DNA of 64,000 nucleotides from Candidula unifasciata. Its lineage: Eukaryota > Mollusca > Gastropoda > Stylommatophora > Geomitridae. The stretch lies in the NCBI GenBank assembly GCA_905116865.2, contig CAJHNH020008113.1, positions 270,814-334,813 of the forward strand, given 5' to 3'. The number at the start of each line of letters is the position of its first letter. Position 1 is the stretch's first letter. Shown piece after piece: positions 89-62,703 of the stretch. A model generated the notes under the pieces. The model was not told where the DNA came from. It made no database searches and worked only from the letters and a program-made list of their open reading frames with translations. The translations under genes were made by a program, and so were the position numbers.

Positions 89-23042
<22,954 letters not shown>

Positions 23043-39099: not shown

Positions 39100-39272
39100 T
39101 CAGCTTTCAAAGTCATGCAGAAACGTGTTGAGAAAGTCAAATGAAGGTCGTGAATGTGGGCAGTTCTGCCAGCACATGAGCATGACATCGTACACTTCCT
39201 GCGGACAACCCAGGGGCTTGGACATACGGTATCCATCACGCAAATTTTCAAATGCTTCTTTGCTGGCCTTGT
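39100..39272 (-). CDS. Pseudokinase gene exon 9: end of C-lobe, stop
   Basis: Acceptor tttttccttacag; stop TGA at 39102-39100. [57 protein letters not shown]. The protein ends at the last kinase helix, so there is no Src-like tail with a regulatory tyrosine. Confidence 0.92.
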
Positions 39273-42200
39273 CTGTAAGGAAAAAAAGCAAATGTTTACA
39301 TTTTTATGACAATTGTGTGGTTTCCTTTGCCTAAATATCAAAACATGCAGAAACATGTCGGTTGGTTTGGTCATTGCAACAATTATCACAAGACATTAGC
39401 CCACAGAAAACACAATTAAAAAAACATATGAAAAGTCAATTTTATGAATAGTGAGAATCCAGGACTGAAATATGATCATTACCAGAAAAAGGTTAAAACA
39501 TACTGTACTTACAGCAAGAGATTCAGAAGGTCCAAAGGATGGAAGCAGCAGCAGAAAACATGAAGAAAGGGAATAGAAGAAGATGCAGAAGCAGGAGGAA
39601 GAGAAGAAGAAGAAGAAAAAGAAGAAGGAAGAGAAGAAGGAGAAGCAGAAGAAGAAGAAAAGGAAGAAGAAAAGGAAAAAGATAAAAGAAGAATACATAA
39701 GCTATTATCACTCGAGAATGATATACCTCTGTATGAATAAGTCTCTTGCACTACCTTTCATTTTCAGAACTGGCACTGTCATTGCCTGCGACCAGTCCAC
39801 TGAGCCTTTCCATCCGTCCTATGCTATATTTACTTTTGTAAAATCCTTTTAGCCACATGATGCTGCTCTGTCCACATGCTGAGATGGCTTCTGTAGTTTT
39901 TTCATTTAAACCAGGTTCTTTTTTAAGGCTTTTCTATATAACAGCTTTTGCTTCTAATGTTTGGAAGTTTGGTTATGTTGTCTACTGCATCCTGGCAGAA
40001 AATTTAAACTAAATATGTGACAGAAAATAATATAAATTGATGAATTAGATTTCCAAACATGGTGGGTTTTTCTAGCCTCAACTGGATGGTGGCCACATTA
40101 TAATCATATAGAGACGGAGATACCAAGAATACAGAGCTCAGCAGAGTTGAATAAAACTACTCACATGTCAAAAAATGCTCTATTACTATATTATTTAAAG
40201 AATACAAAGTACCTATACTGTTCCCACACTGCATCTGTTTAGATTTATTTTGTTCCCCGCTGCATTCCCAGAACAGCTTTAACTTTATCTGTTAAGAACC
40301 ATTTTCCGTGCCTTCAGGCGATTGGGCATACTAGGCTACACCTAAATTGTATAGACCAATCAGCACTCAGTGGGGTGTGTGGTCAACATCACGCCAGCCG
40401 CTTTTACATGGTACCCATCTAAGGCTGGGTCAGAACCAGAACCCATGACCTTCGGATCGGCAGGCAAATCACGACACCAGGACAGCTCCCAACTCGTTCA
40501 ATACCAGGCAAATATTTCACTGTTATCACAGAAAGCTGTAAGTTAACAAATAAACATTTAGGTCAGACATGAGTTTTAATGAAAACAGTATGAAGGATAA
40601 GGAGTTCAAGTAACAATCAGAGCAGAGTAAGTCTGTGTGGAAGAAAATGGATGTAGAATGAGCGGAGGCGGGGGCTTGAAGACAACATCACACCAATCAT
40701 TATTGTTTGGGGAGCTCATATTATGAGAAGGAACCTGGAACTATTGTGACAACTGCAAAGATCTGTGAAAAAAAGAGACATAGGGAAACAATGCAACAAG
40801 ATTCTTGACAACCTTTTGACATGACATGAAGGGAGTGTCAGCATAAAAACGGATACACGCTGTAGAAGATCGCAGAGTGTGGAGAGAAATTGTTCTTCAC
40901 AGAAGACATTTGCCACATCCGAGATTGCCTTAAGCGGCCTGCACTGTTTACTGAAACTGCTGGAAGCCATAATCATTAAACAGAATCCTGCCTTGTGTAA
41001 ACAAAATGAGCATGTGATAAATTTGAAATCTGTGTGGTGTTGCTTTTGGGTAATCTTGAATTTCAGGTGTTAATGAATGAGTTGAGCATTCATGCCTGGC
41101 ATTAAGTACACCTGCTATAAGTTAAGTCAGACCCCCACCTTCGTAAGGCTCCTTCCCGTGTGTGAATATCTCCATAAGAACAATCCCGAAAGACCACACG
41201 TCTGCCTTGGTGCTGTACTTGTTATACAGCAATACTTCTGGTGCCATCCATTTGATTGCCATCTTCATACCTGGTCAGAGAAACGTTCATATGAAGACTA
41301 CTAAGGAAACTTTGAAAAAGACTGCTTTATTCATAGAAATTATGATGTTATAATTTTCCCACTGGTCAGTGGGTACAGTGTCTTAAATTGATCACTGTAA
41401 ATATAGATTTTTAGGACTCACAGAGATGTGACCGAGTTAATTCTCTGATGAATTCATGGCACTGCATACAGACAGAATATGCACAGACACAACACACACA
41501 GGCACACAGAACACACACAGATACAACACAGACATCGCACGCACACACACCAAACAAAAAACAGAGGTACAATATAAACACACAGACATAACACATACAC
41601 AACATATACACACAGACACAACACACACGTACATTCACAGACACAACATACAGACATGACATAAAGTGATATAAACACAGCCTCAAATAATGTCAATACA
41701 GCTTCAAATGTTTAGGTATAGCCTCAAATAATGTCAATACCTTTTCTTCTTCTTCAGTATTCCAAGCCCTTGAGGTTCATTGCTGCAGATATCACCTGCC
41801 TCCATACATCTCTTTGGTTGGCCTTTTTTTTTCCCCAGTTGGTGACACCAAGTGTTTGCAGGTCTGTCTGAACATTATATCTCCATTGTCTTCTTGGACA
41901 GCCTCGTGGTCTAGACCATTCAGCTCCATTCTGTATAGTTTTTACTTCTCTGTCATTTTTTCAATATGTCCCAACCATTTAGGTCTATTAGCTCTCATGA
42001 AGCCAGTGATTGTAAGAACAGCAGACCAAAAGTCAGAAGAATTTAAGACCACCAGCGGTGTTAGACAAGATGATATTCTCTCGCATTACCTCTTCATTCT
42101 AATGTTGGATAATGTCATCAAGACCTGTAAGGAGAAGACAAAGAAGTACTCTGTAGAGTACTGGAAGATGAGACCAATCTGTATATCAGAGCTGGCATTT

Positions 42201-45200
42201 GCAGACGATGTGGCCCTGATAGCTAAATCAGAGGCACACCTTCAGTCCAACTTACTTGTCTGGAAGTAAGAGCTTGAAAAGAGAGGGATGACCATCAGTA
42301 TCTCCAAAACTAAAACCATGGTGATCTCAAGAGAGGAGAAGAATCACCAGATCATGATGGGACAGTATGCATTGGAGCAGGTTAACCAGTTCAAATACCT
42401 TGGAGTTGTATTAGACCTGAAACGGAGGCATTAAGACTGAGCTGGCTACACGAAAAGCAGCTGCTGGGAGACTCTTCCAGGCCATAAACCGAGGGTTTCT
42501 TAGCAAAAGAGAAATTGGCAAAAGGACGAAAATGGCTGTTTACCGCTCTACCTATGTACCAGTCCTGATCTATGGGTGTGAGTCATGGGCAATGACAACA
42601 GCTCACAGAAGCCAGTTGCGGGCCTCGGAAATGAGATCTCTGAGAAAGGTGGTAAAAGTGACAAGAAGGGACAAAGTCCGCAATCAGACAATATGTCAAG
42701 ATCTTGATACCCAGTCCTTACAAATCCGAGTGGATCAGTCAGTTACAATGGTTTGGACATGGATGCAGAATGGGAGAAAATTGGCCACCATGGCAGGCAT
42801 GGGAGGCTAAGAACCAGGGAACCAGACCTCCAGGACGACCCAGGGTGCGCTGGGAAGACAACATCCTACAGTCCCTAACTGACAGAGGACTGGAATGGAA
42901 CAAAGCCAGAAAGAAAACTGCTGATAGAGACGTCTGGCGATCTCTCTGGCAAACCTCTACACCCCAAGGTAGAAGAGGAGCGACTAAGTAAGTAAGTAAG
43001 ATGCCAGTGATCAATGGTGATCTAAACAGATTATGAATTCCATTGTTGCTTCTCACTCTCCATTCCCCACTGTTCGCAAATAATGTCAATACAGCCCCCC
43101 CCCCCCCCCCCCCCCCCCCCAAACCAGCACCACCCCAAAAAAAAATAATCAACAACAGATTACTAAATTACTAAACTTAAACTACCTTTTCTAAAGTTGA
43201 AATCTGGATCTTCCACAGCCTTGGTCATGCCAAACCCAGCCACCTTGATACGATTCTGCTCCCCAACAAGAATGTTTCTGGCTCCGAGGTTCCTGTGCAC
43301 AAACTTCTCCTTCTCCATGTAGGCCATTGCATCTGCTATCTGTTGATGTGCAGCAATGAAAGGCTTAGGTGGATACTGGCACTAACAACAGGAACCAAAC
43401 AGAACAAAGAGGAACAGCATACACTGCAGAAAACAAGGACCACTTCATATTTTGAGCTGTATCAAGTAAATGCATTAGGGGATTTGGGGGGGGGGGGGGG
43501 GGGGGGGGGTGGCGCAGACTGGCACTTTTCCAGATGATAGTGTTCCATTACAATCAGATCCTATGGTGATAGATACCAACTAAAACCTGGGATAAAGCTC
43601 TTCCTCTCCACAGCAACAACAACAACCTGGGAGGTACTGCAGAAGTCATGGATGCTCATGAAGCATGATCCCTCTCTTTGTTAACTCCAAAGGAAAGGAA
43701 ACGAGCAAATAAATAGCCCATATTTTTAATAAACCAATAAGTGTTCAGTGGTTGGTGGTTGGTCAGCGTGGGACTGGTAACCTTTACTTGATGAAACATT
43801 TTCTGGGAACCCTGTTGTAGACTGGACTGACCTGGTTGTCAGGGTAATATTTTTTCTTGATAAGGATTTTTCTTCTTCTTCTTGATGTTCGGTTTTGTAT
43901 GCTCAGTTCAGACTGTCAGGTGGGCTGCCTCTATGAACTTACATGTCAGCAGAAGATCCTGCTTGGTTCCCAACAGCTTGCTCTGCACACTTTGCTCTTG
44001 GGGACAGCTCTCTTTTCACAGGTTAAATATAGTGGGCAGGAAGACAGAATGTGCTCAGATGTTGAATGTGATAGTTGAGCCTGCAGTGTCCTGTTTTTAG
44101 AAGGCTAATCATTGTGTGTTATCTTCTGATGAGGTTTGGTGAATGTTTACTGTTGGTTTGTTCTATCCACAATTCCTTGTATTGTATGTTATCCTAGCCC
44201 CCCCCCCCCCCTTAATGGGGCCTCTTAACCCACATGGAGATGTAATCTGAACAATCTGGTGCTATTTTATCCACAAACATACACACAAAGGTGCCTGCAA
44301 TGGAACTCAACAACATTCCCAGTCTCTCTTCTTGGTTGTTATGTACATTTTAAGAATCTTATTTGTTCATCTCAAATCGCCACCTCCAGTGAGTACACAT
44401 TTTCAACATATACACCTGTATAGAACAAGAGTGGTTAGTATGTGAGTCTTGGGGCCCAATATGGAAGACAGGCATGGCAGAATCTTTAGCTTCGAAGTTA
44501 ATTTTGCTTCTGACAGCACTTTACTAATGCAGTTTCTACATGTGGACAGAAGTCTGTAGTTTTACTGCCTAAGCTCCTGAGTAAAATGCTTGGTGCAGCA
44601 CTGTGAGCTATGTTTTTCATGTGGAATACCTCTTATTTGTGCAGCAGTTGTGTCGTGATACTGTATGGCAGGTAGTCAGTTTTTCTATGGGTTGGCAAAA
44701 TATCTTATGTAAAAAATTTTCCCTGTGTATGGCTAACTTGTCATGACCAGCTACTTTCATCAACCACAAACTGCATTTCTGGTTGGCGACAGTTGGCTTT
44801 GATGCCTCTAGCAACTGCCTCCGGCATTTATTGTGTGCACATATTTCTGGATTGTGCTAAGACTAATTGTTGGTTCAACAGCTTTTCAGGACAATGACAG
44901 ACATTCTTTCTGATTTTCACTGGCAAAGAAACGAAAACAAGCATGCGGTTGTCTGGCTAAAGTGAAATTTAACAACCTCAACTACAATTTATGGCCTAGA
45001 TCCACCCAGCCCAAAATGGAAACTAAGTAATGTCCTGCGAAGTAAAGGTGGCCATGTCATGCTGACCACATCCTCCATCAAATGGTGGGTGGTCTATACC
45101 TCTTCTGAAAGTCTATGCCATGTGGCATTGGTAATCATGTCTATCCACATCATCAAAGTGTGGTTTTCAGTGGCACAGAAATGGTGCAATTATGGGGTGA

Positions 45201-47850
45201 CCCGTATGATATGAGGTTTTGAACTCTAATTACCCAATTACTTAAAGGCAATGTCATGGAAGGCTGTGGCCACAGACCCGACAACTCATGCCATTGCAGA
45301 ATTAACCATAACGAAGAAAACAGCACACCACGCTTACCTGGGCCCCGATGTGTATCAACTTTGACAGCCCTAGAGTGTCGCCCTTCTCCTGAAGAAACTT
45401 GGACAGCTGTCCCTGTGGCATGTACTCTATTAGCAGATAACAGGGCTGCATCTCACAACACACACCCTTCAGCTCCAAAAGGTTGGGGTGCTGCAGTGTC
45501 TTCATCACCTGAGCCTCATCCAGAAAGGCTGCCGTGGTCACACTGTCCACATTCTGCACCTTGACCGCCACATCGACTGACCCATGCCACTTTGCTGTAG
45601 ACAGTTTAAAAGTCATTTGAGTCCGTATGGGCATTTGTTATTATGTCATTTTTCTCTCATTCAACATGTTACATAACAGATACAATCTTTCTTCTTTCTA
45701 CTTTAGAAGGTCAGTTAGTACAATGTGTCATGATTTACAGCTAGGCTGTGATATTTTGCCTTTTAGCTCAACATATCTGATTTTTAGCTTCACCTGAACC
45801 AGTCACATTTCACAATATGCTTGTTGGGTTGGGCTGGAGGAGTGTGGGTCTATTCCTGTTTCCTCCAAGCTGGGCTTTCGGAACCACCACAGGGAAGAAA
45901 AGGTTTAAAGTTGAGAATACTGACTGCACTGTACGGGGGCTTCGTCCCATACGGGTGTCTCTCTCTCTCTCTCTTCAGATCGCCTATTTAGTGTGTCAAG
46001 AACACAGCACAAATTCCACAGCTCCAGCAATGATCCCAGAGAATCTATGTAAATAATGCACTGTGAGTCAAACAATACAGTCTGTGAAACAAACACATCA
46101 CCTCAGAACCCAAGACAAAAAACTTGACTAATCAGCTATGGAGACACTCTTTTCAATTGAAGTTACCTTTAAAGGGTCATAAATTGGGCACGCAGGCCTG
46201 TCTTATGATCTTTCATTCCAAACACTCATCTTTCACACAGTAACTGTATTTCATCTATACGGCATGTTGTGTTCATAGGCTCTTCTTCTTCATATTTATC
46301 TGTTATAAACGTCTGCAGAAAGTTCTGGTTGCTCATCCTTTTCTGGATTTTGGCCTCATTCCAGAACTTTAGTTTTGGGTGCACATTTATTTTACAGATC
46401 TGGCTTATTGGTACGTATACTGCAGATTCGTCACCCATGAAACAGTTGCACTCCAGCTTCGAAAAAAATTCAGTTTCGCTTTTACGTCATGTGTGATTGT
46501 GTGTGATCTGTGGGGGGGGGGGGGGGGGGGGGGGGGGGGGAATGGGGGGGGGGGGGGGGGGGGGGGGAGAGAACATTGGGGACTATTCTTTTGCTCCAAA
46601 ATGAGGCCACTGAACCCACATAATATGATATCAGGTAAAACCAAAAATGCATGTAAACATGCACAGACACACATGTGGGTACGCACGCACGCACACAGAT
46701 ATATTGCATATGTACTTATAGATATACACACATGCAACATCAATTCAAAATCTACAATCCTTTGTATGATATCTCAGCAACAGCATTATCCTTACGTCAA
46801 ACTCTACAATTCGTTTTGAAGCTGCCTTGCCAGGTCTGAGGATTAATTTCAACAACAACATATGAGATGAGATGCATAAGAAATGTGGCAGGAGAAACTA
46901 GACAACAAAGTCACAAGTGAAGAACTTAATACAATGGCTGGCACAGTACCAGTAAACAATTTCAAAGAACATCAAAGAATCAAATGGTTAGGTCATCTGG
47001 TCAGAATGAAACAAACTCAGCCAGCAGCTAGAGCATACTAAATGAGAATGCAAGGCTACAAGGCAACAGCATGACCAAGAAAGAGTTAGGTGGAGGGAGT
47101 AAATGACACATGACAGAAGACAATAGGCATTAACACAAGCTATGCAACAGGTAAATGACAGGAAACTACATCTCTCTGTGACATTCGTGGCATAAACAGT
47201 AGGGCAAAAAGAAGAAGCAGAAGAATAGTAAAGATAATTTTAAAATAAAAACAAAACAGCCTCTTGACTAACCATGCCATACTTCTGCGAACTGCCCGCT
47301 GCCCAGTCGCCTGATGAGATGTAATGTGCTTCTCTCTGTCATGTACTCATCATCTTTGCCTCTTTCCATGGCCCAGACCAGAGACCTTGGTTTGGCAACG
47401 GTTGTCAACAGCTTACAGCACAGTCCATCAGCAGATTCTGCCAGAGATGAAACATTTCAAGCATAGAGAAAGGCATCTCACTTTACAACCAGGAAGAGTC
47501 TTCTTCTTCTTCTTAACCTTCACCAGTTAACAATTCTGGTGGAAAGTTCTGGCTGTTTATCCACTTCTCGACTTCAGTCTTGTTGCAGAACTTTAGTTCC
47601 ACATGCACATCTCTGTTACAGATGTGGATTATTTGTATGCAGACTGCTGGGTCCTTGCCTCTCAGGCAGATTCACTTCCATTTGGAAAAATAAACCCTTA
47701 TTTAGTTTACTTTTACAACATGCTGGTTAAGGGGGCAGTGGGTCAGTGGCTCTATTCTTGTCTCTCCCAAAATGGGGCTCCAGAACCCACACTAAAACAT
47801 CAAGTGAGGAAGACATCTCATTATGGTCTATTCACATTAACTCTTGTGAG

Positions 47851-47881
<31 letters not shown>

Positions 47882-50800
47882 ACCCCCCACCACCCCCCCC
47901 CCCAGTGCACCACATTTATGAACATATAAAGGAGTTTCAGTGTTTTGCGGAAACTAGACGTGTTGGGTCTTCTTCTTCAGCGATCTCTGGCCATGCGCAT
48001 AATCCACTGTGGGCCATAAACTGGGATGACTTCTCAAGGTCTCTTAGGTTTCCCCAAAGCTTAGTTGTCAGTTCTTCTGGGTCTCGCCATATGTTGCTCT
48101 GCAGCTCCGCAGCTCTGCCAAGAGAAGACAGTCTTGCAGGACATGTTCTGGAGTCTGTTCAGCACGAAGACACTGGCAGAGAGCTGTTTGGCTCATACCT
48201 AATTTATAAGAGTGTTTATTGAGTCTGTAGTGTCCAGTACGTAAGTGAAAAACTGTGACTTGGTCTGGTCTGTTCAGGTGTTTCAGAAAATCTTTTTCGT
48301 AGTTATATCCAAGTTGATTTTCCAATGTTTCTGATTTTCTCTTAATGAGAGTTTTGACTTCTGGAAAAGATATTGGCTGGTAGGTCTGTGGTTTGTTACC
48401 GGCTTTCTTGGCTAAAGCATCAGCGCTTTCATTGCCTTTGATGCCACAGTGAGATGGAATACACTGCAGGTAAGTTTCTGCCTTTTTTGACAACATAGCA
48501 AGTTCCTTTGTTAGACTTTGTAGTGTGCTGTCGGTAGGTTTGGACTCAAGGGCCTGTATAGCTGACAGTGAGTCAGTGAGAAAAACCATCCTACCTGCGG
48601 TGACTTGCAGATTGTTCAAATACTGCACTGCCATCAATAAGGCCGAGAGCTCTGCCTTGTAGTTAGAGCAAGTTCGTCTGGTGGGGGCTGCTAGGGACAC
48701 AGTAGTGGCATCTGGGTGTTCTATGTAAACACCTGCCCCACCATTCGTAGTTGCCTCTTGCTGATCCATCTTTGTAGATTCTCGTCTAGCTATCCTCTGG
48801 GAACATGTCTAGGTGTTCCATTATGAGTGCTTTCTTTACTAAAGTGGGCTTAGCATCTATGTTTCCCAGGTTCGGGATGGATTCTGACACACTGAGTGTC
48901 AATAATTCTGAGTCCCAGAGATTGAAAGATAGCTCTTCAGGTGTACATTGTTGGTAACGCAGTGAAGAGAATGACTTTCCAAATTCCTTAGTTAGATGGT
49001 TTAGGCTTGTGCGCTTTACTCGTTTTTTTTTTTGGTCCTGGCTGCCAATTTTTCGTGTAGTGGGTGGTTTAGCATTCTCTTAATTTTTTCCGCATTGTAG
49101 AATTGCTTTTGTCCTTTTTTTCTAAGGGGAGGATGCTGGCTGCCTTTTCTATTTCTACAATAGGTGTAGATTTTATGGCTCCCAGAACTGTACACAGACT
49201 TCGGTTTTGCGTTTTGTCTGGTACCTGTTTATACGAATGAGCAGCTGTTATTCATGACGATGATGCGTATTCGAGAGTTGGTCTGACTGTGCCGGTGTAT
49301 ACCTGCTTCAAGATGCGACTGTCTGCTCCCCAAGTGCTGCATGACAATTTCTTCATTACATCTTGCTTTCTCATAGCTTTTTAGTTAGTTTCCATGTCAG
49401 ACGATTGTCAAGCTGAAGGTTGGAGTAATGGAGCATGGAACAGCATCATTGTTGAATTTTAATGTAAACTTTTCCTCCTTGGTAGACAATGAGAAGAGTG
49501 TTGCTACAGTTTTGTTCTTGTTATGTGTTGGGTCAAAACGTACAAATGTCAAAGCCTAGCTGTGTACCACAAAAACAATGTGCCAACCACACTTTGTTAA
49601 CTATACTTAACCTGGTAATGTTTAACAACTACCCTGTCTGGTTACCAAATTCTCCCCAATAATTTCAACTTCTGTAGCTACCAACCAAACTTACCTTGGT
49701 AATGTTAAACTAACTTCCTGATGACTAAACTAACCTTGATATTGTTCAACCAACCACACTTACACTGGTAATGTTTAACTAACTTGTCTAGCTAGGAACC
49801 ACACATATGCTGATCATGTTTAACTGACCTGCCTGGTTTGCAACCATACTTGCCCTGATAATGTTTAACTAACTTGTCTAGTTACCAACCACACTTACCC
49901 TGATAATGTTTAACTAACCAGTCTGGTGACTAAACTTACCCTGATAATGTTTAACTAAATCAGCCAATGACTGGAACACTCTCTGCCTGGTGATGAAGTA
50001 GCACTCCTTGCCTGACTCTGGCACCCGTTTAGTCATAATTTTGTAATGTTTCACCAGACAGCCACGAAGCTCATCACAGTCTCTCACACTCAATGTATAA
50101 GTATCTGTGAAGCAACGGCAAGATACAATCAAGGCATTAGGATCGAGGAATCTTTGCCAGCATCTTTTGTTCAATTTAAGTAACACATTTTCTGAAATTC
50201 AACTGTAACTAGCTTACATTTCCATATCATCTTTGTCTTTCTTTGCCTCTACTGTCCAGTATTTTCCCACATACGTTTTATTCTTCTGCATTCATCACTA
50301 AAAATAGCTGCTACGTTTTGTTGTGGTTGACCCCTATGCTGTGATAACTTTCCCTTTAGTGCCCTCACATACAATTTTAGCAAATTCTTAATTAGTTGCC
50401 TCTTATGACACATTTGTTAAGAAGCTGTGCATCGATGACCACCCCAGCACCCTTTTTCCCAAACTGCGATGCCAGAACTGAAAGGGAGAATTTTCCCCAA
50501 ACAAAAATAGCATAAAATCTATTGTATTCAGTGTTACTGAAATAGTTAGAAACTATACTAAGCAACATTTGTTGAATGAGACTGAGCATTTATAGGTTTT
50601 ACCATAGTACTATGATGTCAATTCCTCATTAACCAAATAAGACATAACTAATGGTGAATAAAAGTGGGAGAGTCAACTACACTGCATCTGGTTTATAATC
50701 CATCCACATCTCTCTCTCTCTAGAACATCTTAATTCCTGCCCTGAGCATACAGCAAGAACTCTGTACCTCCAGTGATGTTCTCCAGGGATATTCACAAAA

Positions 50801-53800
50801 CACTGCTCTCGTAAACCAAATGGTGTAATCCAAAAATTACAGCACGATTCAAATGATTGAAACCCTTTAACACAGTTCCCCCCCCCCCCCCCCCCTTTCG
50901 GCAAGGCTATTAACAACACACACAAAAAACTGCTCTCGTAAACCAAATGGTGTAATTTAAAAATTACACCACAATTCAAATGATTGAATCCCTTTAACAC
51001 AGTGCCCCCCCCCCCCCCCCTTCCTCTTCGGCAAGGCCATTAACATACAACAACACACAAAAAACTGTGTATCCTTTAGGAGACATTGCAAAACCAATCT
51101 CAGCATTTTTTAGCTATGGCAGTTTTAAAGGCAAATTTTCGGTGCAGTTTTATAGGCATTTTTTCTTTCAGTAGTTTGCCAGTGCTTTCTGCACGGTCAG
51201 GTCTCAAAACCATTGCCAAAACCAACGTAGGACTAGTCTGCTGCCATACTGTCTGCAGCTGCGATTTACCTCAGCATTATGAAGTGTGTTCACAACACCT
51301 AAGCCACAGACGGCGACAACAAGCACAGAAAGATGCAAATACAGATATGTAAGCAGCAGTGAAAGCGTACCTGGGGTCATTTCTCCTAAGCGAATCAAAA
51401 ATGTTCCAGTTAGGTGACCAGGTGATAGTAGCCATTCTTCTGAGGCATTGCGGCTGACTTTGCCAAAGTACCAACTGAAATTATAATTGGCAATGTGTTA
51501 AACATGTGTTCAAAAGTTTGCTAATAGTTTAGGTTTAGGAGGGGGGGGGGGACCATTTCCACACCTTAGAACTCTCAGCCCTACTGTTGACAGCACAGTA
51601 CATAAACAAGCTGCAACCACTGCAGGCAGAATAATTTTTCTGGCAGATTCTACAGGCTCAGACAGCCATACACTAAAGTGAACTAGCAATGAAAATAATT
51701 GTATGACTGGGGGTCGCCACATTACGAGCAATTGTAGGAACCCTATTAAAGAGTCGCCGCATTAGGAAGGTTGAGAACCACCGCTAGACAGCCTAACAAA
51801 GTTGCCCAATATAAAGTCTAACACAGCATTCCAAAAAGAGAAAGAAAAAACCCCAAAAGGCAGAAATTCACCTGCAGTGGATTCTATCGCACTGCCCCAT
51901 CAATAGCAGCAATGAAAGTGCTGAGGCATTAGCCAAGGAGGACAGCGGGAAATAACAAAACTAACTTATCCATCTTCTGTAACAAAATCTACAGAATGAA
52001 ATCTTTAAAAGGACTTCTTCTTCATCTCTCTAGATGCGTGTGTGTATGTATTATGCATGTCTGTATATGAGTCTGCATGTATGAGAAAGTAGGAGTATGT
52101 ATACGTGTGTGTGAGTGTGTACGATTGTGTACACATGATGTGTGTATGCATTATTCTATAATTTTTATTTCTTTATTATATCCATAATCTGCATTACTGA
52201 TAACAGGCAATGGTACTCTGAAAATGAGTGCTTAGAAGGGCCGAATGTCAGACGGGCCTGCGTGCCCAATTTGGAAAATAAAGTGTGTTTGTTTGTTCGT
52301 TCTTTTACCATTAAAAGGGTAGTTGGTACACTGTGGCTTACAGATAAGATGCAACATCTGCATCTTTCACCTCCAACACGTCCAACTTCAGCAAAACTCA
52401 ATTTGGTCGCCTTTTACAACATGCCTGTTACGGGACAGTGGGTCCACCCCCGCCCCCCTCCCCCTTCCAAATGGGGCTCCAGGACCTACACAGAAAGAAT
52501 ACATCAATAACTTACTCATAATTTCTGTGTCTCTGTTCCCTAGGGGAAGGAGGACACAAGTCACGTGGTGGGGTTGTCTGATGCTGTTGATGTCCAAGGG
52601 ATGGATCCAAAGTGTCCTCATGTATGGTATCAGCTAGGCTGGTGAGCAGGAAATTGTCAGGAAAACCTGCCACTCCCTCCGCCGGCACCTCTGTGCTCTT
52701 ACGACACATGGGGCAAGGGAAGTAGCCTGGGCGGTTTCCAGGGTTTCGTCGAACGTAGTCCTGGAACATTCACATAGAAAAGTCAGATAACAGCTGGTAG
52801 CTTTAAGGCATCGGTAAAGAATCTTTGCGTAAATCTGGACAGAAGCGACCAATCCCAAAATGCTATTCTCCACTGAAGTGCCCATAACAAACAGCTTCTG
52901 TCCAGATTTGTGCAGACAAAAAGGCATGGTCATGAACAAGCATTTTCCCTAGTAAAATAGGTAGTTACTGTTGAGTGTTGCTTTTTTAATTCAGAGTTAA
53001 TGAATACTGCATCTGTATGGGACATAAATAGTTACAGTAACAATTCAGAGTGGACAGACACAACAACTGTCTAGGGCAGAAACATTTTTTTTTAGTATTG
53101 TAATGTAAAGTCAGCGTCTGTAGCTTACGCCTTGTGAGCGTGCTTCATAATGCCGGGGTGCTGTGTTCAATCCCAGGTCCAGGTGATCTGAAGCAGAACA
53201 TCTTGCGCTGATTTTGACAGTGGTACCCAGAGCTGACCGTTCAGAAAGAAGTGGCAAACTACTGAACATAAAATGTGCCTAGAAAAATCACAACACAACA
53301 ACCACACACCACCCCACCCCACACCACACCACAAACAAATGCTGGGGTTTGTTCTGCAATGTCCTATAAAAGGATCAACTTCATTACTTTGGGTTTTTTC
53401 CATATGTCTCCATCACTAATCGGTTCTGTGGCTAAGTCGATGCCAACGCTTCGTAATGACGGGATGCCGGGTCCGATCTCAGCTGCAGGCCATGCGCCTT
53501 GCGTTGGTTTCGACAGTGGTATCAAGAAAGCCGACCGTCCAGAAAGCAATGGCAAACTACTGGAGGTAAATTTGCCTTAAAAAACCCACACAACAGCCAG
53601 GGGCTGTTGGGGTTGGTTCTGCAACGTCCTGTAAAGGATACACAACTAACCTTCATCACTCTCTAAAGAATGGTTAGCATCCGTTAAGAGCGCCGCACAA
53701 AGAATGAACTCTGTAGCTGCAGAAACGACCCCCAGGAATCTTTGTAAAAACTGCAGACTCGTGAACTGAGCGGCCCATGACCTTCAGTGAGCCAGGCAAT

Positions 53801-55279
53801 TTCTTGACTCACCAAATGTTGTTAATAACAATTCAAACAAAACAAAGTGAATATTATTACAACTCTCTGGAGCATGAACATACACTGCAGTAACAATTTA
53901 AACAGTAAATAACATAACTGTCTGGAGCAGAAAAGACACCTACAGGTTTTGACAAAAATAATTAATTCACACATATTAATCCAATCCATCATTCAGGTGC
54001 CATCTCCATAATGAAGACTGGCTGCAACACTCTCTCTTTTGCAGTGGCTGTAAACACTCTGAAGAGAACTGATTACCCACATCAGAAAGAGACAACCTAC
54101 ATTCTTTGGTCATGTGATGAGAGAAGGAGAAACCTCAAGTACACTGTACGAAAGTTGGAGGGAGGAGAGGCAGAGTGAGAGAGAACAGATGCTGAACAGT
54201 TTGACACCATAGCATGGAAGATCACCTGTGACAGAGTTCACTGCAAGTACATGATACTAAAGGTTGTGGATAGACATGACTACCAACGTCACACGAGATG
54301 GACTTTAAGAAGAAAATGAAGAAGAAGAAGAAGAAGTAAACACTTTGAGACTGCTGCTTGTTCATTTTTTGATGTTATCCTCCAATGTGTACAGCTGTCT
54401 GCCTCTTGTCTTTAACTTTTCACTTCAGTAAGGTTTTATAAAAATGTTGTGTCTTTTAATGTCAGTAATATTTCACTTGGCTCTTGTCTTTTTCCTTAAG
54501 CAACTCTCACCATTCCCAAAGAGACAATAAACATAGCTGTTAAAGACAGCAAGAGTTTCAGTAACAATTCCCAGAGAGAATAAACATGATTGTTAGAGAC
54601 AGCAAGAGTTACTGTAACAATTCCCACATAGACAATGAACATAATTGTTAGAGACAGCAAGAAATACTCTAACAATTCCCACATAGACAAGGAAAACTAC
54701 TGTTAAAGCCAGCAAGAGTTTCAGTAACAATTCCCACATAGATAAGGAAAACTACTGTTAAAGACAGCAAGAGTTTCAGTAACAATTCCCACAGAGACAA
54801 TGAACATAACCAGAGTTACCGTTACAATTCCCATAGCGAATGAATAACAAGAGTTACAGTAATAATTCCCACGCAAAGATGAAGATTACAAAAATTAGAG
54901 TAAGAATTCCCACAGATAAATTAGCACAACAAGAGTTACAGTAACAACGCCCACAGAAAAGATAAACAGAACAAAAGTTACAGTTACAATTCCCACAGAT
55001 AAAAAAGCATAACAACAATTACAGTAACAATTCCCACATACAGATGAACATAAGAGTTACAGTAATAATTCCCCAGAGAGAATAAATATATCTGTCAGAC
55101 CGCAAAACTGCACAAAATGAATGAACTGACAGCTGACTTACCCTGAGGCATACTTGGCAGAATGAGTGCAGACAAGGCAAAGCCTTGGGGCGTTTGAGAG
55201 GGTCAAAGCATATTTTACAGGACAGAAATTCTTCTTGGAGTTTTTCCTTCAAGCTATCTCTGCAGTGGGGCTTTGCCAT
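39100..55279 (-). CDS. RING-SH2-tyrosine pseudokinase gene (9 exons)
   Basis: Nine exons on the minus strand: 55279-55142, 52760-52516, 51474-51371, 50104-49940, 47437-47273, 45594-45338, 43339-43186, 41270-41139, 39272-39100. Each junction has AG/GT borders and matching phase; the total is 1533 nt, 510 residues. Domains: C3HC4 RING (Cys21, 24, 36, His38, Cys41, 44, 62, 65), linker to about 127, SH2 (128-220; Arg156 in FLIR, HYKI present), kinase fold (about 250-508). The kinase keeps the VAVK Lys284, alpha-C Glu299, catalytic-loop Asn380, APE and DVWSFG, but has GSGQFA in the P-loop, HRN (373-375), GFG (393-395) and Phe405 where Src has its activating Tyr. It ends FLHDFES with no tail Tyr. 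The kinase half is Src/FRK-like; the RING is TRIM-like without B-boxes. Inferred role: a phosphotyrosine-directed ubiquitin ligase or scaffold in the cytosol. A 5' UTR exon may lie upstream: an acceptor-like ccccag sits at 55291-55296. Confidence 0.88.
41139..41270 (-). CDS. Pseudokinase gene exon 8: APE motif and helix F
   Basis: Acceptor ctctgaccag, donor gtgggg. [20 protein letters not shown] then [20 protein letters not shown] and PYE. Structural C-lobe residues are well kept. Confidence 0.93.
41741..43076 (-). mobile_element. RTE-like LINE 3' fragment split by another LINE
   Basis: Outer element, in the intron between pseudokinase exons 7 and 8. Minus-strand pieces 43076-43003 ([20 protein letters not shown]) and 42010-41741 ([27 protein letters not shown]) join as LITGFMRAN. 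Same family as 24135-24600. Flanked by an exact 16-bp duplication, caaataatgtcaatac, at 41725-41740 and 43077-43092; the tail is gaagaagaaaag. Confidence 0.82.
42011..43002 (+). mobile_element. LINE polymerase fragment nested in another LINE
   Basis: Inner element: [40 protein letters not shown] (the RT catalytic box), [20 protein letters not shown], then [20 protein letters not shown]; several shifts and stops. The tail is (TAAG)n. Flanked by gccagtgat at 42002-42010 and 43003-43011, so it inserted into the minus-strand LINE after that had settled. Confidence 0.85.
43186..43339 (-). CDS. Pseudokinase gene exon 7: altered catalytic and activation loops
   Basis: Acceptor cacatcaacag, donor gtagtt. 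[51 protein letters not shown]. Aligned to Src, the catalytic Asp of HRD is Asn, the Asp of DFG is Gly and the Tyr of EDNEY is Phe; the frame and both splice sites are intact. Confidence 0.93.
45338..45594 (-). CDS. Pseudokinase gene exon 6: kinase N-lobe
   Basis: Acceptor aactgtctacag, donor gtaagc; 85 codons. Contains [13 protein letters not shown] with the beta-3 Lys, [20 protein letters not shown] with the alpha-C Glu, and [20 protein letters not shown] with Ile at the gatekeeper position. Confidence 0.93.
46281..46620 (-). mobile_element. (GAA)n-tailed SINE with expanded poly-G
   Basis: tcttcttcttcatatttatc tail, gcagaaagttctggttgctc, acagatctggcttattggta, then a ~57-base G-rich run (46511-46567), then aaaatgaggccactgaaccc. 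Elsewhere this position holds only a short run. Confidence 0.65.
46900..47235 (+). mobile_element. LINE 3' remnant
   Basis: Frames give [20 protein letters not shown] then PAARAY and a PRK.W.EGVND-like block, related to the fragment at 13485-13753. It ends gcaaaaagaagaagcagaag. Multiple stops. Confidence 0.55.
47273..47437 (-). CDS. Pseudokinase gene exon 5: SH2-kinase linker and P-loop
   Basis: Acceptor catctctggcag, donor gttagt. [20 protein letters not shown], then the linker Trp (LVWAMERG), then [15 protein letters not shown]. The P-loop has Ala in place of the third glycine. Confidence 0.9.
47501..47791 (-). mobile_element. (GAA)n-tailed SINE
   Basis: ttcttcttcttcttaacctt, ggtggaaagttctggctgtt, ctctcaggcagattcacttc, aaaatggggctccagaaccc. 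Flanks share only aggaaga. Lies in the intron just upstream of pseudokinase exon 5. Confidence 0.72.
47970..49524 (-). mobile_element. 5'-truncated I-like LINE (RT end plus RNase H)
   Basis: RNase H reads on the minus strand from about 48769 to 48068: [55 protein letters not shown], then [20 protein letters not shown]. Upstream, to 49524, lies the decayed end of the polymerase. (GAA)n tail at 47970-47977. Flanks carry the exact duplication gtgttgggtc (47960-47969 and 49525-49534). It sits between pseudokinase exons 4 and 5. Confidence 0.87.
49595..49945. repeat. ~45-60-bp tandem repeat touching the donor of SH2 exon 4
   Basis: Units of gataatgtttaactaac, ttgtctagttaccaaccaca, cttaccctg. The last unit overlaps the end of exon 4 (49940): the donor gtaagt of the exon resembles the repeated cttaccctgataatg on the plus strand. 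Confidence 0.8.
49940..50104 (-). CDS. Pseudokinase gene exon 4: second half of SH2
   Basis: Acceptor ttgcttcacag, donor gtaagt. [20 protein letters not shown] then [20 protein letters not shown] and [12 protein letters not shown]. The intron before TYTLSV matches the place where Src-family SH2 exons are split. Confidence 0.92.
50790..51030. repeat. Direct duplication, ~125 bp
   Basis: aaaactgctctcgtaaacca, aatggtgtaat, aattcaaatgattgaaaccc and a poly-C run occur twice in tandem, with the ttcggcaaggc segment after each. Confidence 0.88.
51371..51474 (-). CDS. Pseudokinase gene exon 3: first half of SH2
   Basis: Acceptor ataatttcag, donor gtacgc. The GA from exon 2 plus T gives Asp, then [20 protein letters not shown] and [19 protein letters not shown] opens the SH2 in Src-type kinases; Arg of the alpha-A helix (VSR) and the phosphotyrosine-binding Arg of FLIR are present. 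Confidence 0.9.
52318..52500 (-). mobile_element. SINE sharing only the head of the (GAA)n family
   Basis: Minus-strand head (gtgtaggtcctggagcccca, cccactgtcccgtaacaggc) resembles the (GAA)n SINE head, but the rest (ttttgctgaagttggacgtg, gatgcaacatctg region) differs. Likely relatives at 45690-45900, 37370-37560 and 50310-50420. Confidence 0.5.
52516..52760 (-). CDS. Pseudokinase gene exon 2: second half of RING and linker
   Basis: Acceptor atgttccag, donor gtaagt. Reads [20 protein letters not shown], completing the RING, then the TRIM-like [15 protein letters not shown] and a His/Pro/Arg-rich linker ending QRHRNY plus GA. It replaces the place where Src-type proteins have an SH3. Confidence 0.86.
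53108..53378 (+). mobile_element. tRNA-like SINE (family D), diverged copy
   Basis: Same order as 21421-21664: gtctgtagcttacgc head, tcaatcccaggtcc box B-like, ttttgacagtggtacc, then tgcaatgtcctataaaagga. Next to a second, closer-to-consensus copy. Confidence 0.65.
53424..53654 (+). mobile_element. tRNA-like SINE (family D)
   Basis: gtggctaagtcgatgccaac head, gggtccgatctcagc, cgttggtttcgacagtggta, ccgaccgtccagaaagcaat, gcaacgtcctgtaaaggata. Tandem-like neighbour of the copy at 53108; antisense to the pseudokinase gene. Confidence 0.75.
54050..54340 (+). mobile_element. LINE 3' remnant with (GAA)n tail
   Basis: [24 protein letters not shown] frame, the polymerase tail 'H..R...T.FGHVMR.....L' with stops, then [11 protein letters not shown] and a gaagaagaagaagaagaag tail. 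No function. Confidence 0.45.
54490..55080. repeat. ~40-60-bp tandem repeat next to RING exon 1
   Basis: Units of gttaaagacagcaagagttt, cagtaacaattcccacatag. The array ends about 60 bases from the donor of exon 1. Confidence 0.85.
55142..55279 (-). CDS. Pseudokinase gene exon 1: first half of RING
   Basis: 46 codons from ATG ([17 protein letters not shown]) through [20 protein letters not shown] to CQVCLR, then donor gtaagt. Supplies six of the eight zinc ligands. The start is chosen as the first in-frame ATG after a good acceptor-like site (ccccag, exon from 55290); an earlier ATG in that putative exon (55288) is out of frame and stops after 11 codons. Confidence 0.82.
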
Positions 55280-55574
55280 TGCTAGCCATTCTGGGGATGG
55301 GAAAATCAAACAAGGTGACCAAATTTACCTCAGAGGCCTCTATTCTGAAAATATTTAATTGTGTCTTCTTCTCCTGCTGTTGCACCACATACTTCATAAA
55401 AGTTCGTAAGAACTAAAGTGGGGAAGGGGGGAAGGGGGGGGGGAGCTGGTGTAAGATTTGATCCAGACTGCACAGGTCAGCACTAATGTGTGAATGAAGT
55501 CAACAATAAACTTGGATAAACGGGCTAGGTCGCCCAAACAAGCGATGCTGGGGTATAAAGTTAAACGCTTCAAA

Positions 55575-55853
55575 CTCTTCTTAGTATTAAGCAGCTGTAA
55601 GCTCTACCAGAGTTCTGGCTGTTTGTCCAATTCTCGACCTTGTTATTGTTCCAGAACAGGAGAATTGCGAGTAGATGTACTGTGGGTTGATCGTCTCTCA
55701 GGCAGATACACTCTGACTTCAAAGGAAACAACCCCAATAAGTCGCCATATCACATCGCATGGTTCTTGGGGGGGGGGGGGGGGGGGGGGGGGGGTAAGGG
55801 GACCTAGATTTTTTTGTCATCCTCCTCCCCCAAATAGGCCCCAGAACCCACAT
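55575..55853 (-). mobile_element. (GAA)n-tailed SINE, old copy
   Basis: Diverged: aagcagctgtaagctctacc, agttctggctgtttgtccaa, tctcaggcagatacactctg, poly-G expansion at 55769-55794, then ccccagaacccacattggga. Just upstream of the RING exon. Confidence 0.6.
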
Positions 55854-58835: not shown

Positions 58836-59915
58836 TTACACCGACAGACAGGTTCTTGTGATAAACTTGACTGTTTTAATGAGTTCATTTTTAGTCCCAT
58901 ACAACTTTGTGTACAGTGGTGACTCACTGGGCCAGTATTCCTTTCTTAATGGGCTGAACAAGGGACAGTCTTGCAGGACATGTTCTGTAGTCTGCACACA
59001 TAGCCCACAAGGGCAAAAAGGTGAACTACTTAGACGAAGCCTGTGCATATGCTGGTTAAGTTTGTTATGTCCTGTCCTGAGACGTAGGACAATGACCTGC
59101 CCATGCCGGTCAAGTAAGTGGTAGTCATCTCTGGCCAGACTCTGTTCACTTCTGATAGCCTGGATGGCCCTTTTCTTCTCATAGTATGTTACTGCATTCT
59201 CTTCTTGGTCACATTCTGCCCCTTTTTTAGCAAGTTTATCTGCGGTTTCGTTTCCTGGTATACCACAGTGGGATGGCACCCACTGGAGTACAGTACACTT
59301 TTGGGCAGCCACCTTGCCAAGTTTAGATCTCAAGTGAGGGAGTTTGCCACTCTTGAGGGCTTGAAGCACTGAAAGCGCATCTGTGAATATAACCACTTGG
59401 TGGCAGTCAGAACTGGTGTTGTGTAACATTTCGGCAGCCTGCTCTAGTGCTACAATCTCTGCTGTGTAGTTGGAACAGAATTTACCAGTGGGTATCCACT
59501 TTGTGTGGCGGTGGTTGCCTGGGTATGTAATAAAGACTCCAGCACCCCCATTTTTAACCGCGCTGGTTGCTGATCCATCTGTGTAAATATGTATCCATGA
59601 CTGTTCGGGATAGTTTTCATGAATCATGCTAAGAGCAGCTGTTCGTTTTTGAAGATCATTGGACTCATCTCCAGTTGTGAATCCATTGACTGAAGTCATT
59701 ATCTGTATTGTATCACTGACTTGCTCCCAAGGTACAGGGTATAGGGTAGGTTTCAGCGGTGTTGTTCTAATAGGTAGATCAGCTTGGTACTGTCTTCTAA
59801 GTCTTTTTCCCCGATGGACAAAGCTGCTACGTTTGAGACGCCCTAATGCCAGATCATCTAACCTTTTATTCATTGGGTGTGACTGCATACTATTAAACTT
59901 CTCCATCTGGATCAT
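58836..59915 (-). CDS. LINE RNase H and C-terminal Cys motif
   Basis: 359 codons. WIHIYTDGSATSAVKNGGAG (first Asp), EIVALEQAAEML (Glu), VVIFTDALSVLQALKSG (Asp), QWVPSHCGIPGNETADKLAK (His, Asp), then LRTGHNKLNQHMHRL and CPCGLCVQTTEHVLQDCPLF. All four RNase H carboxylates are visible. Normally fused to the RT; here offset by one frame. Confidence 0.9.
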   Translation of the reverse strand: MIQMEKFNSMQSHPMNKRLDDLALGRLKRSSFVHRGKRLRRQYQADLPIRTTPLKPTLYPVPWEQVSDTIQIMTSVNGFTTGDESNDLQKRTAALSMIHENYPEQSWIHIYTDGSATSAVKNGGAGVFITYPGNHRHTKWIPTGKFCSNYTAEIVALEQAAEMLHNTSSDCHQVVIFTDALSVLQALKSGKLPHLRSKLGKVAAQKCTVLQWVPSHCGIPGNETADKLAKKGAECDQEENAVTYYEKKRAIQAIRSEQSLARDDYHLLDRHGQVIVLRLRTGHNKLNQHMHRLRLSSSPFCPCGLCVQTTEHVLQDCPLFSPLRKEYWPSESPLYTKLYGTKNELIKTVKFITRTCLSV

Positions 59916-60922
59916 AGTTTTTTAGTGTCTCTTCTATAGGACAATGTCTGCATTGCAGTTATTTTCTGCATCTTCAGGATTGGTGCAGTTTTCATGGATC
60001 CTGTGATGAGTCTAAGAGCTTGATTTTGCACTCTGTCTAACGATTGTAGGTGGGAATTAGCAGCTGTTGACCATGCTGTTGCACCAAACTCCAAGTGGGG
60101 TCTTATCGCTCCATTATAAACTTTCTTTAGGGTTTTTCCATTTGCTCCCCATCCTGTACCTGCCAATTTTCTAAGTAGGCCTAGTCGTCTCCTGGCCTTC
60201 CCTTCTACATTTTCTATATGTTTGCTCCATGTGAGCCTTTTATCAAATGTTACTCCAAGATAAGTGGGGAAGCTTTCTTCCTTTAGCAAGGATGTTCCTA
60301 GGTGAATACTAGCAGCTTTGTCCCTGGTGGAAAGAGAGAAAAGCGTTGTGGATGTTTTGTCTGTGTTGATGGCAACATGCCATTTTTCTGCCCATGTCAT
60401 CAAGAGATCTGCTGCTCGCTGCATTCTTATATTTGCCACTGTGGTGTGTTCATCGGTACACCAGAGTGCCAGATCATCTGCATACAGGGCAGCTTTTACT
60501 CCTGTAGGGAGGTCTTTCACCAGATCATTTATATACACAAGAAAGAGAGTTGGAGAGATAACTCCTCCCTGTGGTACTCCTTGCCGAAGTAACACTTTTC
60601 TACTCTGCTGGCCATCAAGACTGACTCTAGTTCTTCTGCTGTGTAAGAAGGATTGGATCCATTTTAGCATGTTTCCTTGGATTCCATTTCTCTTCAGTTT
60701 TGCAATGAGACCATCTTTCCAGACTTTGTCAAAAGCTTGTTTGAAGTCAACCCATACCGCCAGGACCTTTTTCTTCTCTTGGAAGGCATCCTCTACAGCT
60801 TGTGACAGGTAGGTGACTTGATCTTCTATGCTGTGACATTCCCTAAACCCAGCCTGCTCTGGCACCAAGATCTGCTCAGATTCTAAGTGCCATTTCAGTC
60901 TTGAATTTACAATTCTTTCCAA
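59912..60922 (-). CDS. LINE reverse transcriptase, catalytic piece
   Basis: ERIVNSRLKWHLESEQILVP, EQAGFRECHSIEDQVTYLSQ, VWVDFKQAFDKVWKDGL (first Asp), RQGVPQGGVISPTLFLVYIN, AALYADDLALWCTDE (YADD), TYLGVTFDKRLTW, then the thumb. The open frame begins about 60 bases before the ATG. The TGA overlaps the ATG of the RNase H frame by the four bases ATGA. Confidence 0.9.
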   Translation of the reverse strand: MERIVNSRLKWHLESEQILVPEQAGFRECHSIEDQVTYLSQAVEDAFQEKKKVLAVWVDFKQAFDKVWKDGLIAKLKRNGIQGNMLKWIQSFLHSRRTRVSLDGQQSRKVLLRQGVPQGGVISPTLFLVYINDLVKDLPTGVKAALYADDLALWCTDEHTTVANIRMQRAADLLMTWAEKWHVAINTDKTSTTLFSLSTRDKAASIHLGTSLLKEESFPTYLGVTFDKRLTWSKHIENVEGKARRRLGLLRKLAGTGWGANGKTLKKVYNGAIRPHLEFGATAWSTAANSHLQSLDRVQNQALRLITGSMKTAPILKMQKITAMQTLSYRRDTKKL

Positions 60923-60977
60923 TGTCTTTCCTACACAGCTTGTGAGACTAATTGGGCGATAGCTCGAAGCCTGTGTC

Positions 60978-61598
60978 TTAATTTTTCCTTTTTTTTAAAA
61001 TGGGTATTGTGATGGCTTCTCTCCATACTTGAGGCACTAAACCTTTCTCCCAGCTGATGTTGAAAATTTCCAGCAGCTTTACTTTAGCAGATGAGGTCAG
61101 GTTGATTAGCATTTCGTTGCTGATTTCATCCGGACCTGCAGACTTTTTTAACTTAAGCCTAAAGATGGCATTTTGTAGTTCACCCATGGTAAATGGCTCC
61201 CTCATAGAGGCAGGAGTATCTGTCTGTCTCTTATTTGTTTGTTTGCTTGTTTGTATTTCTTTCCTTATTTCTCCCTGATGGTCCTCATTAAGGGTCAGGT
61301 TGCTTTCAACACTGAATGTTTTGGCAAACAAATCTGCAGCTTGTTTTCCTCTGAAGATTTTGTCACCATCACTTAGCGTGATTGTTTGTCTAGGCGAGAA
61401 ACTCTCTTCATTGAGTGATTTGGCTAATCTCCAGAGTTTCTTGCCATCTTTATCAAGGTTTAGAGCTGCTGTTTTATTTCTCCAGCTTTTCCGTTTTTCT
61501 TCAAGTTTAGTTCTCTGGAACACTGCTACAGCCCTTTTCCATTTGATGTGGTTGTCAGGTGAAGGTTGGGATTCTGCATCCTTTCTAGTCTGATTCAT
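60978..61598 (-). CDS. LINE reverse transcriptase, N-terminal piece
   Basis: Frame open from about 61660. Linker (KWKRAVAVFQRTKLEEKRKS) and early RT: MGELQNAIFRLKLKKSAGPD, EISNEMLINLTS, VWREAITIPILKK. It stops because of an eight-A run near 60992-60999, where one base fewer would lead on into the next piece. Confidence 0.85.
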   Translation of the reverse strand: MNQTRKDAESQPSPDNHIKWKRAVAVFQRTKLEEKRKSWRNKTAALNLDKDGKKLWRLAKSLNEESFSPRQTITLSDGDKIFRGKQAADLFAKTFSVESNLTLNEDHQGEIRKEIQTSKQTNKRQTDTPASMREPFTMGELQNAIFRLKLKKSAGPDEISNEMLINLTSSAKVKLLEIFNISWEKGLVPQVWREAITIPILKKRKN

Positions 61599-61638
61599 TG
61601 TTTCCTGGCATTCCTGGAGTGTGCTGGACCAGTACGGT

Positions 61639-62703
61639 CTATAGTTTGTGTCGACAGCCTCTGGGGATTGCTTCTTTTGCAGCTTGTAGAATACTTCTAT
61701 TGAAATCGTGCACTAAAGCATTGATATCCCTATTTTGTACCTTGAGAGCAGACAACAATGTGCTTGTCCTGTGTCTGTACAGGCCCCAGTTGGCTTTCTT
61801 GTAGTTCCATCTTGTGATGACTGGGCCTGTATTAACTGGTACATTCTGGACAGTGAGAAAAATCGGGCGATGGTCACTGCCCCCAAGCTGGTCTCCCACC
61901 TCTCTACTTATCATTCCAGATATATCTGGGGTAGAGAAGGCAAGATCTGGGGTCGACGTTGTCTGCCACCTTCTGGAGTAGAAGGTAGGCGTATCTGAGG
62001 GGGCATTTATCAGGATCAGAGAGTGGTCATCTTGCCATGTTTCCACCTCTTCACCCCTATTGTCGAGATGGTTATAGCCCCAGCTCTGTGAATGACTGTT
62101 GAAGTCTCCAACTGCAATAAAGTTGGTGTTTGGTACTGGCACAGAGCTGAGGTTTAGCGATTTGTCATTGGGACAGTAGTAATTAAGGAGTTCTAATTCC
62201 ACTTTGTCTGTCTTAAGCTGCAGGAGTTGGTACTCAGCTCCATCCATATAAGACATTTTCTCGCATGGATGGATACTGTTTTTCACAAGGGTGAGTACTC
62301 CTCCTTTTCGCCTGCCTTGTCTGTCAGATCTGAAGCACTGGTAGCCTCTCACTTTAAATATCTGATCTGCCTGCAAATGGGTCTCTTGGATGCAGCATAC
62401 ACTGACATGCTTTTCATAGAGGATGTTTTCCAGCTCCAACTTTTTGCTGTAGCCAGCCTGCTTACTGCTGACCCCCTCTGCATTCCAGTGCATAATGACA
62501 AAAGGCAATTTGGGATCTTTTCTGTCTAACTGGTTTTGGTCAGTAGCTATCCTCCGCCGTCTCCTGACTCCACAAGACGGTCTAGGAGGTCCTCCAGTAG
62601 CTGGGGGTGGATTCTGTCGAGGCTCAGAACCCGGCACTGCACCTGCCTGGTGGAGTTCCACAGGGCGAGCACCAACATTAAATTTGTCTGACGGTGTAAA
62701 CAT
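61639..62703 (-). CDS. LINE endonuclease (APE-type)
   Basis: 354 codons. A basic, Pro-rich N-terminus, then the exonuclease/endonuclease fold: IMHWNAEGVSSKQ (first metal-site Asn), CCIQETHLQADQ (Glu), RKGGVLTLVKNS, AVGDFNSHSQSWGYN (Asp-x-Asn) and LGGSDHRPIFLTV (Ser-Asp-His). It nicks target DNA to prime reverse transcription. The frame is lost just after IPRGCR; the downstream protein continues in another frame. Confidence 0.88.
   Translation of the reverse strand: MFTPSDKFNVGARPVELHQAGAVPGSEPRQNPPPATGGPPRPSCGVRRRRRIATDQNQLDRKDPKLPFVIMHWNAEGVSSKQAGYSKKLELENILYEKHVSVCCIQETHLQADQIFKVRGYQCFRSDRQGRRKGGVLTLVKNSIHPCEKMSYMDGAEYQLLQLKTDKVELELLNYYCPNDKSLNLSSVPVPNTNFIAVGDFNSHSQSWGYNHLDNRGEEVETWQDDHSLILINAPSDTPTFYSRRWQTTSTPDLAFSTPDISGMISREVGDQLGGSDHRPIFLTVQNVPVNTGPVITRWNYKKANWGLYRHRTSTLLSALKVQNRDINALVHDFNRSILQAAKEAIPRGCRHKL

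Follow-up and report, generated by a model that had tools for sequence, protein, structure and literature searches.

The 64,000-nucleotide stretch of the gastropod Candidula unifasciata analysed here (contig CAJHNH020008113.1, positions 270,814 to 334,813; hereafter the window) carries on its minus strand a gene of 16 kb in which a RING domain, an SH2 domain and a tyrosine kinase fold follow one another in one reading frame. An original prediction, made from the DNA letters, had proposed nine minus-strand exons joined in consistent phase into 510 residues. Assembly of the exons (55279-39100) reproduced that frame, with a coding sequence of 1533 nucleotides (nt), exon entry phases of 0, 0, 2, 1, 1, 1, 0, 1 and 1, and eight introns that all start with GT and end with CAG. 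A Pfam search of the joined protein recovered the three domains that had been described: RING at residues 21-65 (E-value 3.7e-10), SH2 at 129-216 (6.4e-17) and PK_Tyr_Ser-Thr at 256-503 (2.6e-85). The same scan (E <= 0.01) gave no match to SH3, B-box or Cbl_N.

The RING is encoded by two exons. Exon 1 (55142-55290, on the minus strand like those that follow) opens at an acceptor at 55290, 11 nt upstream of the ATG (55279-55277), and its codons 1-46 specify the pre-RING region and RING ligands 1-6. Exon 2 (52516-52760) supplies ligands 7 and 8, the linchpin Arg66, the post-RING region and a Pro-rich linker, and ends in a phase-2 donor. The intron between them splits the C3HC4 RING between its sixth and seventh ligands, as had been read before, and the junction on which the prediction hinged was likewise recovered: exon 2, ending in GA at 52516, and exon 3, starting with T at 51474, together form an Asp codon preceding WYFGK. 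The N-terminal half of SH2 (WYFGK..FLIR) lies in exon 3 (51371-51474), the C-terminal half in exon 4 (49940-50104), the SH2-kinase linker and glycine-rich loop in exon 5 (47273-47437), and the kinase N-lobe, including Lys284 and Glu299, in exon 6 (45338-45594). Within exon 7 (43186-43339), which encodes an HRN catalytic loop, GFG and activation-loop Phe405, the Asp of HRD is replaced by Asn375 (43289-43291) and the Asp of DFG by Gly393 (43235-43237). The remainder of the activation segment, IKWMAPE and helix F are found in exon 8 (41139-41270). Exon 9 (39100-39272) holds the kinase C-lobe and the stop codon without a Src-type regulatory tail; the protein ends in ..FLHDFES, and the regulatory Tyr of the Src tail is absent.

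Since exon 1 opens at an acceptor, at least one exon lies upstream of it. The 11 nt before the ATG, given a G from the preceding exon, encode EWLA in frame with the ATG (55274-55294, minus strand: (E)WLAMA), and the equivalent codons of a paralogue in the same genome (described below) read EWLT, also in frame. Both resemble EWLxMA, the matching piece in longer bivalve, Haliotis and Octopus forms, and a longer isoform of the window gene is therefore likely. With N-terminal extensions of orthologues as queries, no further upstream exon was found in the window; only the (E)WLxMA piece matched, at the exon-1 acceptor. Two side observations concern the starts of related proteins. Several bivalve relatives have an additional common stretch near IPGNMNNF in their N-terminal extension, and one relative, P0009 (538 amino acids), starts MGYTFC, which is reminiscent of a lipid-anchor start and absent from the other starts read.

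Relatives across the molluscs

The original prediction had asked whether related genomes hold the same domain order, and relatives from four mollusc classes do. A protein search returned 1193 hits, of which the best 120 were examined, and a search with a profile of 18 sequences (the window protein and 17 hits from the protein search) returned 1801, of which again the best 120 were examined. In the protein search, full-length RING-SH2-kinase relatives, 59-83% identical to the window protein, came from gastropods (Arion, Aplysia, Biomphalaria, Elysia, Plakobranchus, Haliotis, Nucella and Patella), bivalves (Sinanodonta, Mercenaria, Saccostrea, Mya, Mytilus, Argopecten, Pinctada and Dreissena), the chiton Liolophura, and Octopus. 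Their database names include SRK2-like, SRK3-like, Fyn-like, Yrk-like, tyrosine-protein kinase and hypothetical, and no SH3 is listed for relatives P0001-P0027. Beneath these relatives, which score 669 bits and more, stood partial mollusc models together with three long RING-less kinases (P0028, P0029 and P0034; 39-40% identity across about half of the query), and canonical Src proteins with SH3 appeared from 385 bits downward. The profile search retrieved the same set, its list topped by two long RING-less kinases (P0121 and P0122). A query with the RING region returned 31 proteins, comprising 27 family members (26 earlier hits and one further partial Mya model) and 4 RING-NHL or TRIM-like proteins.

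Across the best 120 hits of each search and these 31 proteins, those combining RING and SH2 under a named organism were molluscs without exception. Six relatives that carry no organism label (P0004, P0009, P0015, P0017, P0023 and P0027) stand outside this statement. They derive from contigs of 1833-4040 bases with open reading frames (ORFs) of 507-566 codons. Two of these contigs (1833 bases with 538 codons; 1840 bases with 507 codons) leave almost no room for introns, in contrast to the long gene of the window, which suggests that these two relatives represent spliced transcripts.

A tree of the SH2-kinase parts placed all 15 sampled family members in one clade (support 100/99), with the chiton branching first and octopus next, the two bivalve groups and the gastropods following in no resolved order, and the window protein paired with Arion (100/96). 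Because the chiton branches first within the family clade, the fusion is probably older than the divergence of chitons from the remaining molluscs. The position of the family within Src could not be placed in this tree, because its stem (0.79) and the outgroups are long.

Residues lost from the kinase and kept in RING and SH2

The kinase had been called a pseudokinase from the window alone, and the relatives bear this out, with the HRD and DFG aspartates and the activation-loop Tyr replaced in them too. Of 32 relatives examined by motif, the 31 that cover this part of the kinase all have HRN in place of HRD. The DFG Asp is Gly in 30/30 covering the site, and Phe replaces the activation-loop Tyr in 30/30. 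The 12 canonical Src controls in the alignment all retain HRD, the DFG Asp and the activation-loop Tyr. Among 33 aligned relatives, only P0139 departs from this pattern, and it is a partial model in which no kinase match is seen. Consequently, the domain appears to be a fixed pseudokinase across the family. Comparison of the window gene with its own-genome paralogue gave a ratio of nonsynonymous to synonymous substitution rates (dN/dS) of about 0.025 for kinase exons 7-9 (dS saturated), and under such constraint the dead kinase probably does something.

A structural model of the Arion orthologue agrees on the fold: the 50 Foldseek matches listed for it are all tyrosine kinases, uninformative on the RING, and its kinase part superposes on Src-family kinase domains at about 2-4 Å. 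Its predicted local distance difference test score (pLDDT) is 81-97 in kinase blocks outside the activation segment (46-71), 80-87 in SH2 and 64-81 in RING. Superposition of the whole chain on Src, Hck and Abl is poor (about 15-18 Å), which makes the arrangement of the domains uncertain.

The RING was followed through the same 33 relatives, of which P0030 and P0033 are fragments that lack the RING region, P0011 begins within the RING, and P0031 has none, its letters having aligned there by chance and being excluded from the counts of zinc ligands and Arg66. Zinc ligands 2-8 are kept in every relative covering them. With its flanks (residues 7-92), the RING is closest to TRIM56, then to TRIM2 and TRIM3. 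TRIM2 activity requires R64, L86 and the hydrophobic V12, the latter two for the dimer helix bundle (PMC9732051). In our reading of the RING alignment with TRIM proteins, these correspond to the linchpin R66, L88 and L10, retained in 30/30, 30/30 and 27/28 relatives, respectively. Between window gene and paralogue, RING plus linker has a dN/dS of about 0.066 (dS saturated). The phosphotyrosine pocket of SH2 is preserved as well, in FLVR Arg156 (31/31), alphaA Arg136 (30/31) and betaD His182 (32/32). By these residues, both RING and SH2 look functional.

Src genes, the origin of the fusion and other features of the window

The paralogue is a second, partial copy of the gene, with exons 1-2 at locus L010 (contig C6816) and exons 7-9 at locus L009 (contig C4739). 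Its RING exon 2 ends in the same phase-2 donor, and HRN and GFG are retained. Its exons 3-6 were not found in the genome. Contig C6816 stops about 0.7 kb beyond RING exon 2, and an assembly gap is the likely cause of the missing exons, although a true loss may be the alternative. The original prediction of a single gene, with RING followed by SH2 and then pseudokinase, is strongly supported by the domain order in relatives, the whole ORFs on short contigs and the identical donor of the paralogue. Full-length relatives at 59-83% identity in four classes, together with that shared donor, set the gene far from chance.

Two canonical Src genes of the same genome (contigs C2599 and C6361) show where the RING sits. 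Their SH3 exons end in phase 2 right before the SH2 Trp, with junction sequences E/AWYFGK and Q/DWFFGK (the slash marking the junction), and the window RING exon 2 likewise ends in phase 2 at that place (/DWYFGK). Counting the RING-SH2 junction, 7/7 junctions agree with C6361 in both position and phase, C6361 having one extra intron; the corresponding figure for C2599 is 2/7. The introns held in common with C6361 may represent the ancestral Src pattern. The nearest other RING found in the genome, the paralogue aside, belongs to a 770-codon RING-NHL frame on contig C5795 (54% identity over residues 8-97). Since the RING-SH2 junction equals the Src SH3-SH2 intron in position and phase and all seven junctions are common, TRIM/NHL-type RING exons probably supplanted those for SH3 in a Src gene. 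Both the antiquity of the fusion as a mollusc family and the RING in the SH3 place of Src genes, at the same intron, go beyond the original prediction.

The simplest course of events would begin with duplication of a Src-family gene before the sampled mollusc classes split. TRIM/NHL-type RING exons would then have replaced the SH3 exons through the common phase-2 intron preceding SH2, and catalysis would subsequently have been lost, with the two catalytic aspartates and the activation-loop Tyr disappearing from the kinase. As a separate observation, three gene pairs of this genome each occur in two similar copies, as if after a genome duplication: L003/L006, presumably ROR-like, L005/L007, presumably MUSK-like, and C2599/C2078, which are Src genes.

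The remaining features of the window are mostly retroelements. Endonuclease, reverse transcriptase and RNase H frames lie close together at 58836-62769 (minus strand), and a reverse-transcriptase reading frame occupies 8615-10003 (plus strand). Two further pieces fall inside the RING-SH2-pseudokinase gene, an RNase H-type retroelement fragment in intron 4 (48068-48808, minus strand) and frames that are reverse-transcriptase-like by appearance in intron 7 (41691-42991, plus strand). A repetitive stretch (29654-30997, minus strand), made of CCLFLSHHHIVVSSS-like units and containing three open frames that overlap, is probably a tandem repeat. Long runs of C or G occur in introns and flanks (55768-55796, 46512-46569, 47850-47911 and others), and may be natural or a sequencing effect.

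A candidate phosphotyrosine-directed ubiquitin ligase

The architecture, the RING at the Src SH3 intron, the fixed catalytic loss and the retained key residues of RING and SH2 are direct observations. From them we infer, with a probability of roughly 0.6, a phosphotyrosine-directed ubiquitin ligase derived from a Src duplicate whose SH3 exons were replaced by a TRIM/NHL-type RING and whose kinase was inactivated. In such a protein the RING would dimerise through its flanking helices and recruit E2~ubiquitin, SH2 would capture tyrosine-phosphorylated partners for the RING to ubiquitinate, and the pseudokinase would hold or position the substrate or act as a switch of the RING. Given that the fusion occurs in widely separated molluscs, it is likely a natural device for tagging tyrosine-phosphorylated proteins with ubiquitin. 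We propose more tentatively, and at somewhat less than even odds, that such proteins are mollusc-wide natural phosphotyrosine-gated ubiquitin ligases or degraders able to counteract Src and receptor kinases, in which the pseudokinase governs how the RING dimerises or how substrates are positioned.

The protein shares features with several known systems. It resembles Src-family kinases (Src64B/Src/Fyn) in its SH2-kinase part (mostly 36-45% identity over 65-93% of the query) and in intron positions and phases, which equal those of one canonical Src gene of this genome. It differs from them in having a RING where Src has SH3, a dead kinase, no C-terminal tail bearing the regulatory Tyr, and a start other than MG, the myristoylation start. 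In Cbl, a TKB region (four-helix, EF-hand, SH2) is followed by the RING. The window protein likewise joins an SH2-type phosphotyrosine reader and a RING in one chain, but its RING precedes a classical Src-type SH2, Cbl_N gives no match, and a pseudokinase is present. TRIM2, TRIM3, TRIM56 and RING-NHL proteins offer the nearest RING, flanks included; unlike them, the window protein has an SH2-pseudokinase instead of B-box or NHL matches. Tribbles pseudokinases also couple a pseudokinase to ubiquitination by tethering substrates to the ligase COP1 (PMC8141879), but Tribbles recruits a separate ligase, whereas the mollusc chain contains its own RING, along with SH2. An engineered SH2-U-box directs ubiquitination to BCR-ABL and thus combines SH2 and an E3 domain in one chain that marks phosphotyrosine targets (PMC4916441); it is man-made from Grb2 and CHIP, whereas the mollusc protein is natural.

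RING-plus-kinase fusions exist elsewhere, as in plant KEG and in MEKK1 with its RING-like PHD; we know of none that includes SH2. Our search of the open-access literature found no description of the RING-SH2-kinase combination, and among the papers examined, in the parts available, exact RING-and-SH2 phrases led to Cbl papers and the engineered ligase. The main text of a Biomphalaria ubiquitin-gene paper mentions no SH2 or kinase (PMC6548493), and a Lymnaea paper names an SRK2-like gene that may correspond to the window gene (PMC8414863). Cbl and Hakai are established phosphotyrosine-reading RING ligases (PMC3507883). RING-SH2-kinase proteins are already deposited and Pfam-annotated; what is new is the architecture among phosphotyrosine-directed RING ligases.

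Several points weigh against the ligase. The presence of a RING does not prove activity, since some TRIM-family RINGs are pseudoligases without ligase activity (PMC11992055). The V89A change in TRIM2 lowers activity (PMC9732051), and the counterpart of V89 is here Thr91 (Thr in 30/33 and Ser in 1/33, the chance letter of P0031 included). The first RING Cys is missing in two Mya models (P0123 and P0139), and the Solemya model P0031 lacks a RING altogether. In the Arion model (mean pLDDT 78, predicted template modelling score 0.54, in keeping with an uncertain domain arrangement), the would-be dimer helices have low confidence (residues 1-16 below 50; 81-90 mean 40). The Thr at the V89 position and the poorly modelled helices, along with the strong constraint on a catalytically dead kinase, as expected of a scaffold, would fit a non-enzymatic adaptor or decoy, in which the RING is inactive or serves only for dimerisation and the SH2-pseudokinase occupies phosphotyrosine sites in competition with active Src-family kinases. 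We consider this unlikely, though the strongest of the rivals, because the zinc ligands, the linchpin Arg and the counterpart of TRIM2 L86 are retained in nearly all relatives covering them and the RING is itself constrained.

Some pseudokinases with HRN transfer phosphate weakly. The glycine-rich loop, Lys284, Glu299 and Asn380 are mostly kept among the aligned relatives, so that nucleotide binding is possible and a residual or conditional kinase, still transferring phosphate, might be entertained. Such activity is very improbable, given that no relative covering the sites has either aspartate or the activation-loop Tyr, and that HRD-to-HRN alone left Drosophila Src64 with 12% activity in extracts and indistinguishable from the knockout (PMC3223231). 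Least credible is the wrong joining of two adjacent genes, a RING gene and an SH2-kinase gene: the gene structure derives from genomic DNA alone, and the Solemya velum gene model P0031 has SH2-pseudokinase without RING (a real loss or a model error), but the relatives' domain order and whole ORFs, the matching junction phases, the paralogue's donor and the window itself, where two Src queries found no SH3 match better than E about 0.5 and thus no support for the SH3 exon spliced to 51474 that the original prediction had named as a contrary case, led us to reject it. The other contrary case named there, transcripts that end after exon 2, finds no support in this genomic evidence either.

Phosphotyrosine signalling is usually pictured as a matter of writers, readers and erasers common to animals. 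Here a single exon swap seemingly made a writer into a reader-ligase, which was retained in gastropods, bivalves, a chiton and octopus, in a family that databases label as tyrosine kinases. If the ligase reading is true, molluscs would possess a natural counterpart to engineered SH2-ligase degraders and an independent parallel to Cbl, and the join of the swap, the phase-2 SH3-SH2 intron, would still be readable by comparison with those Src genes of this snail that underwent no swap.

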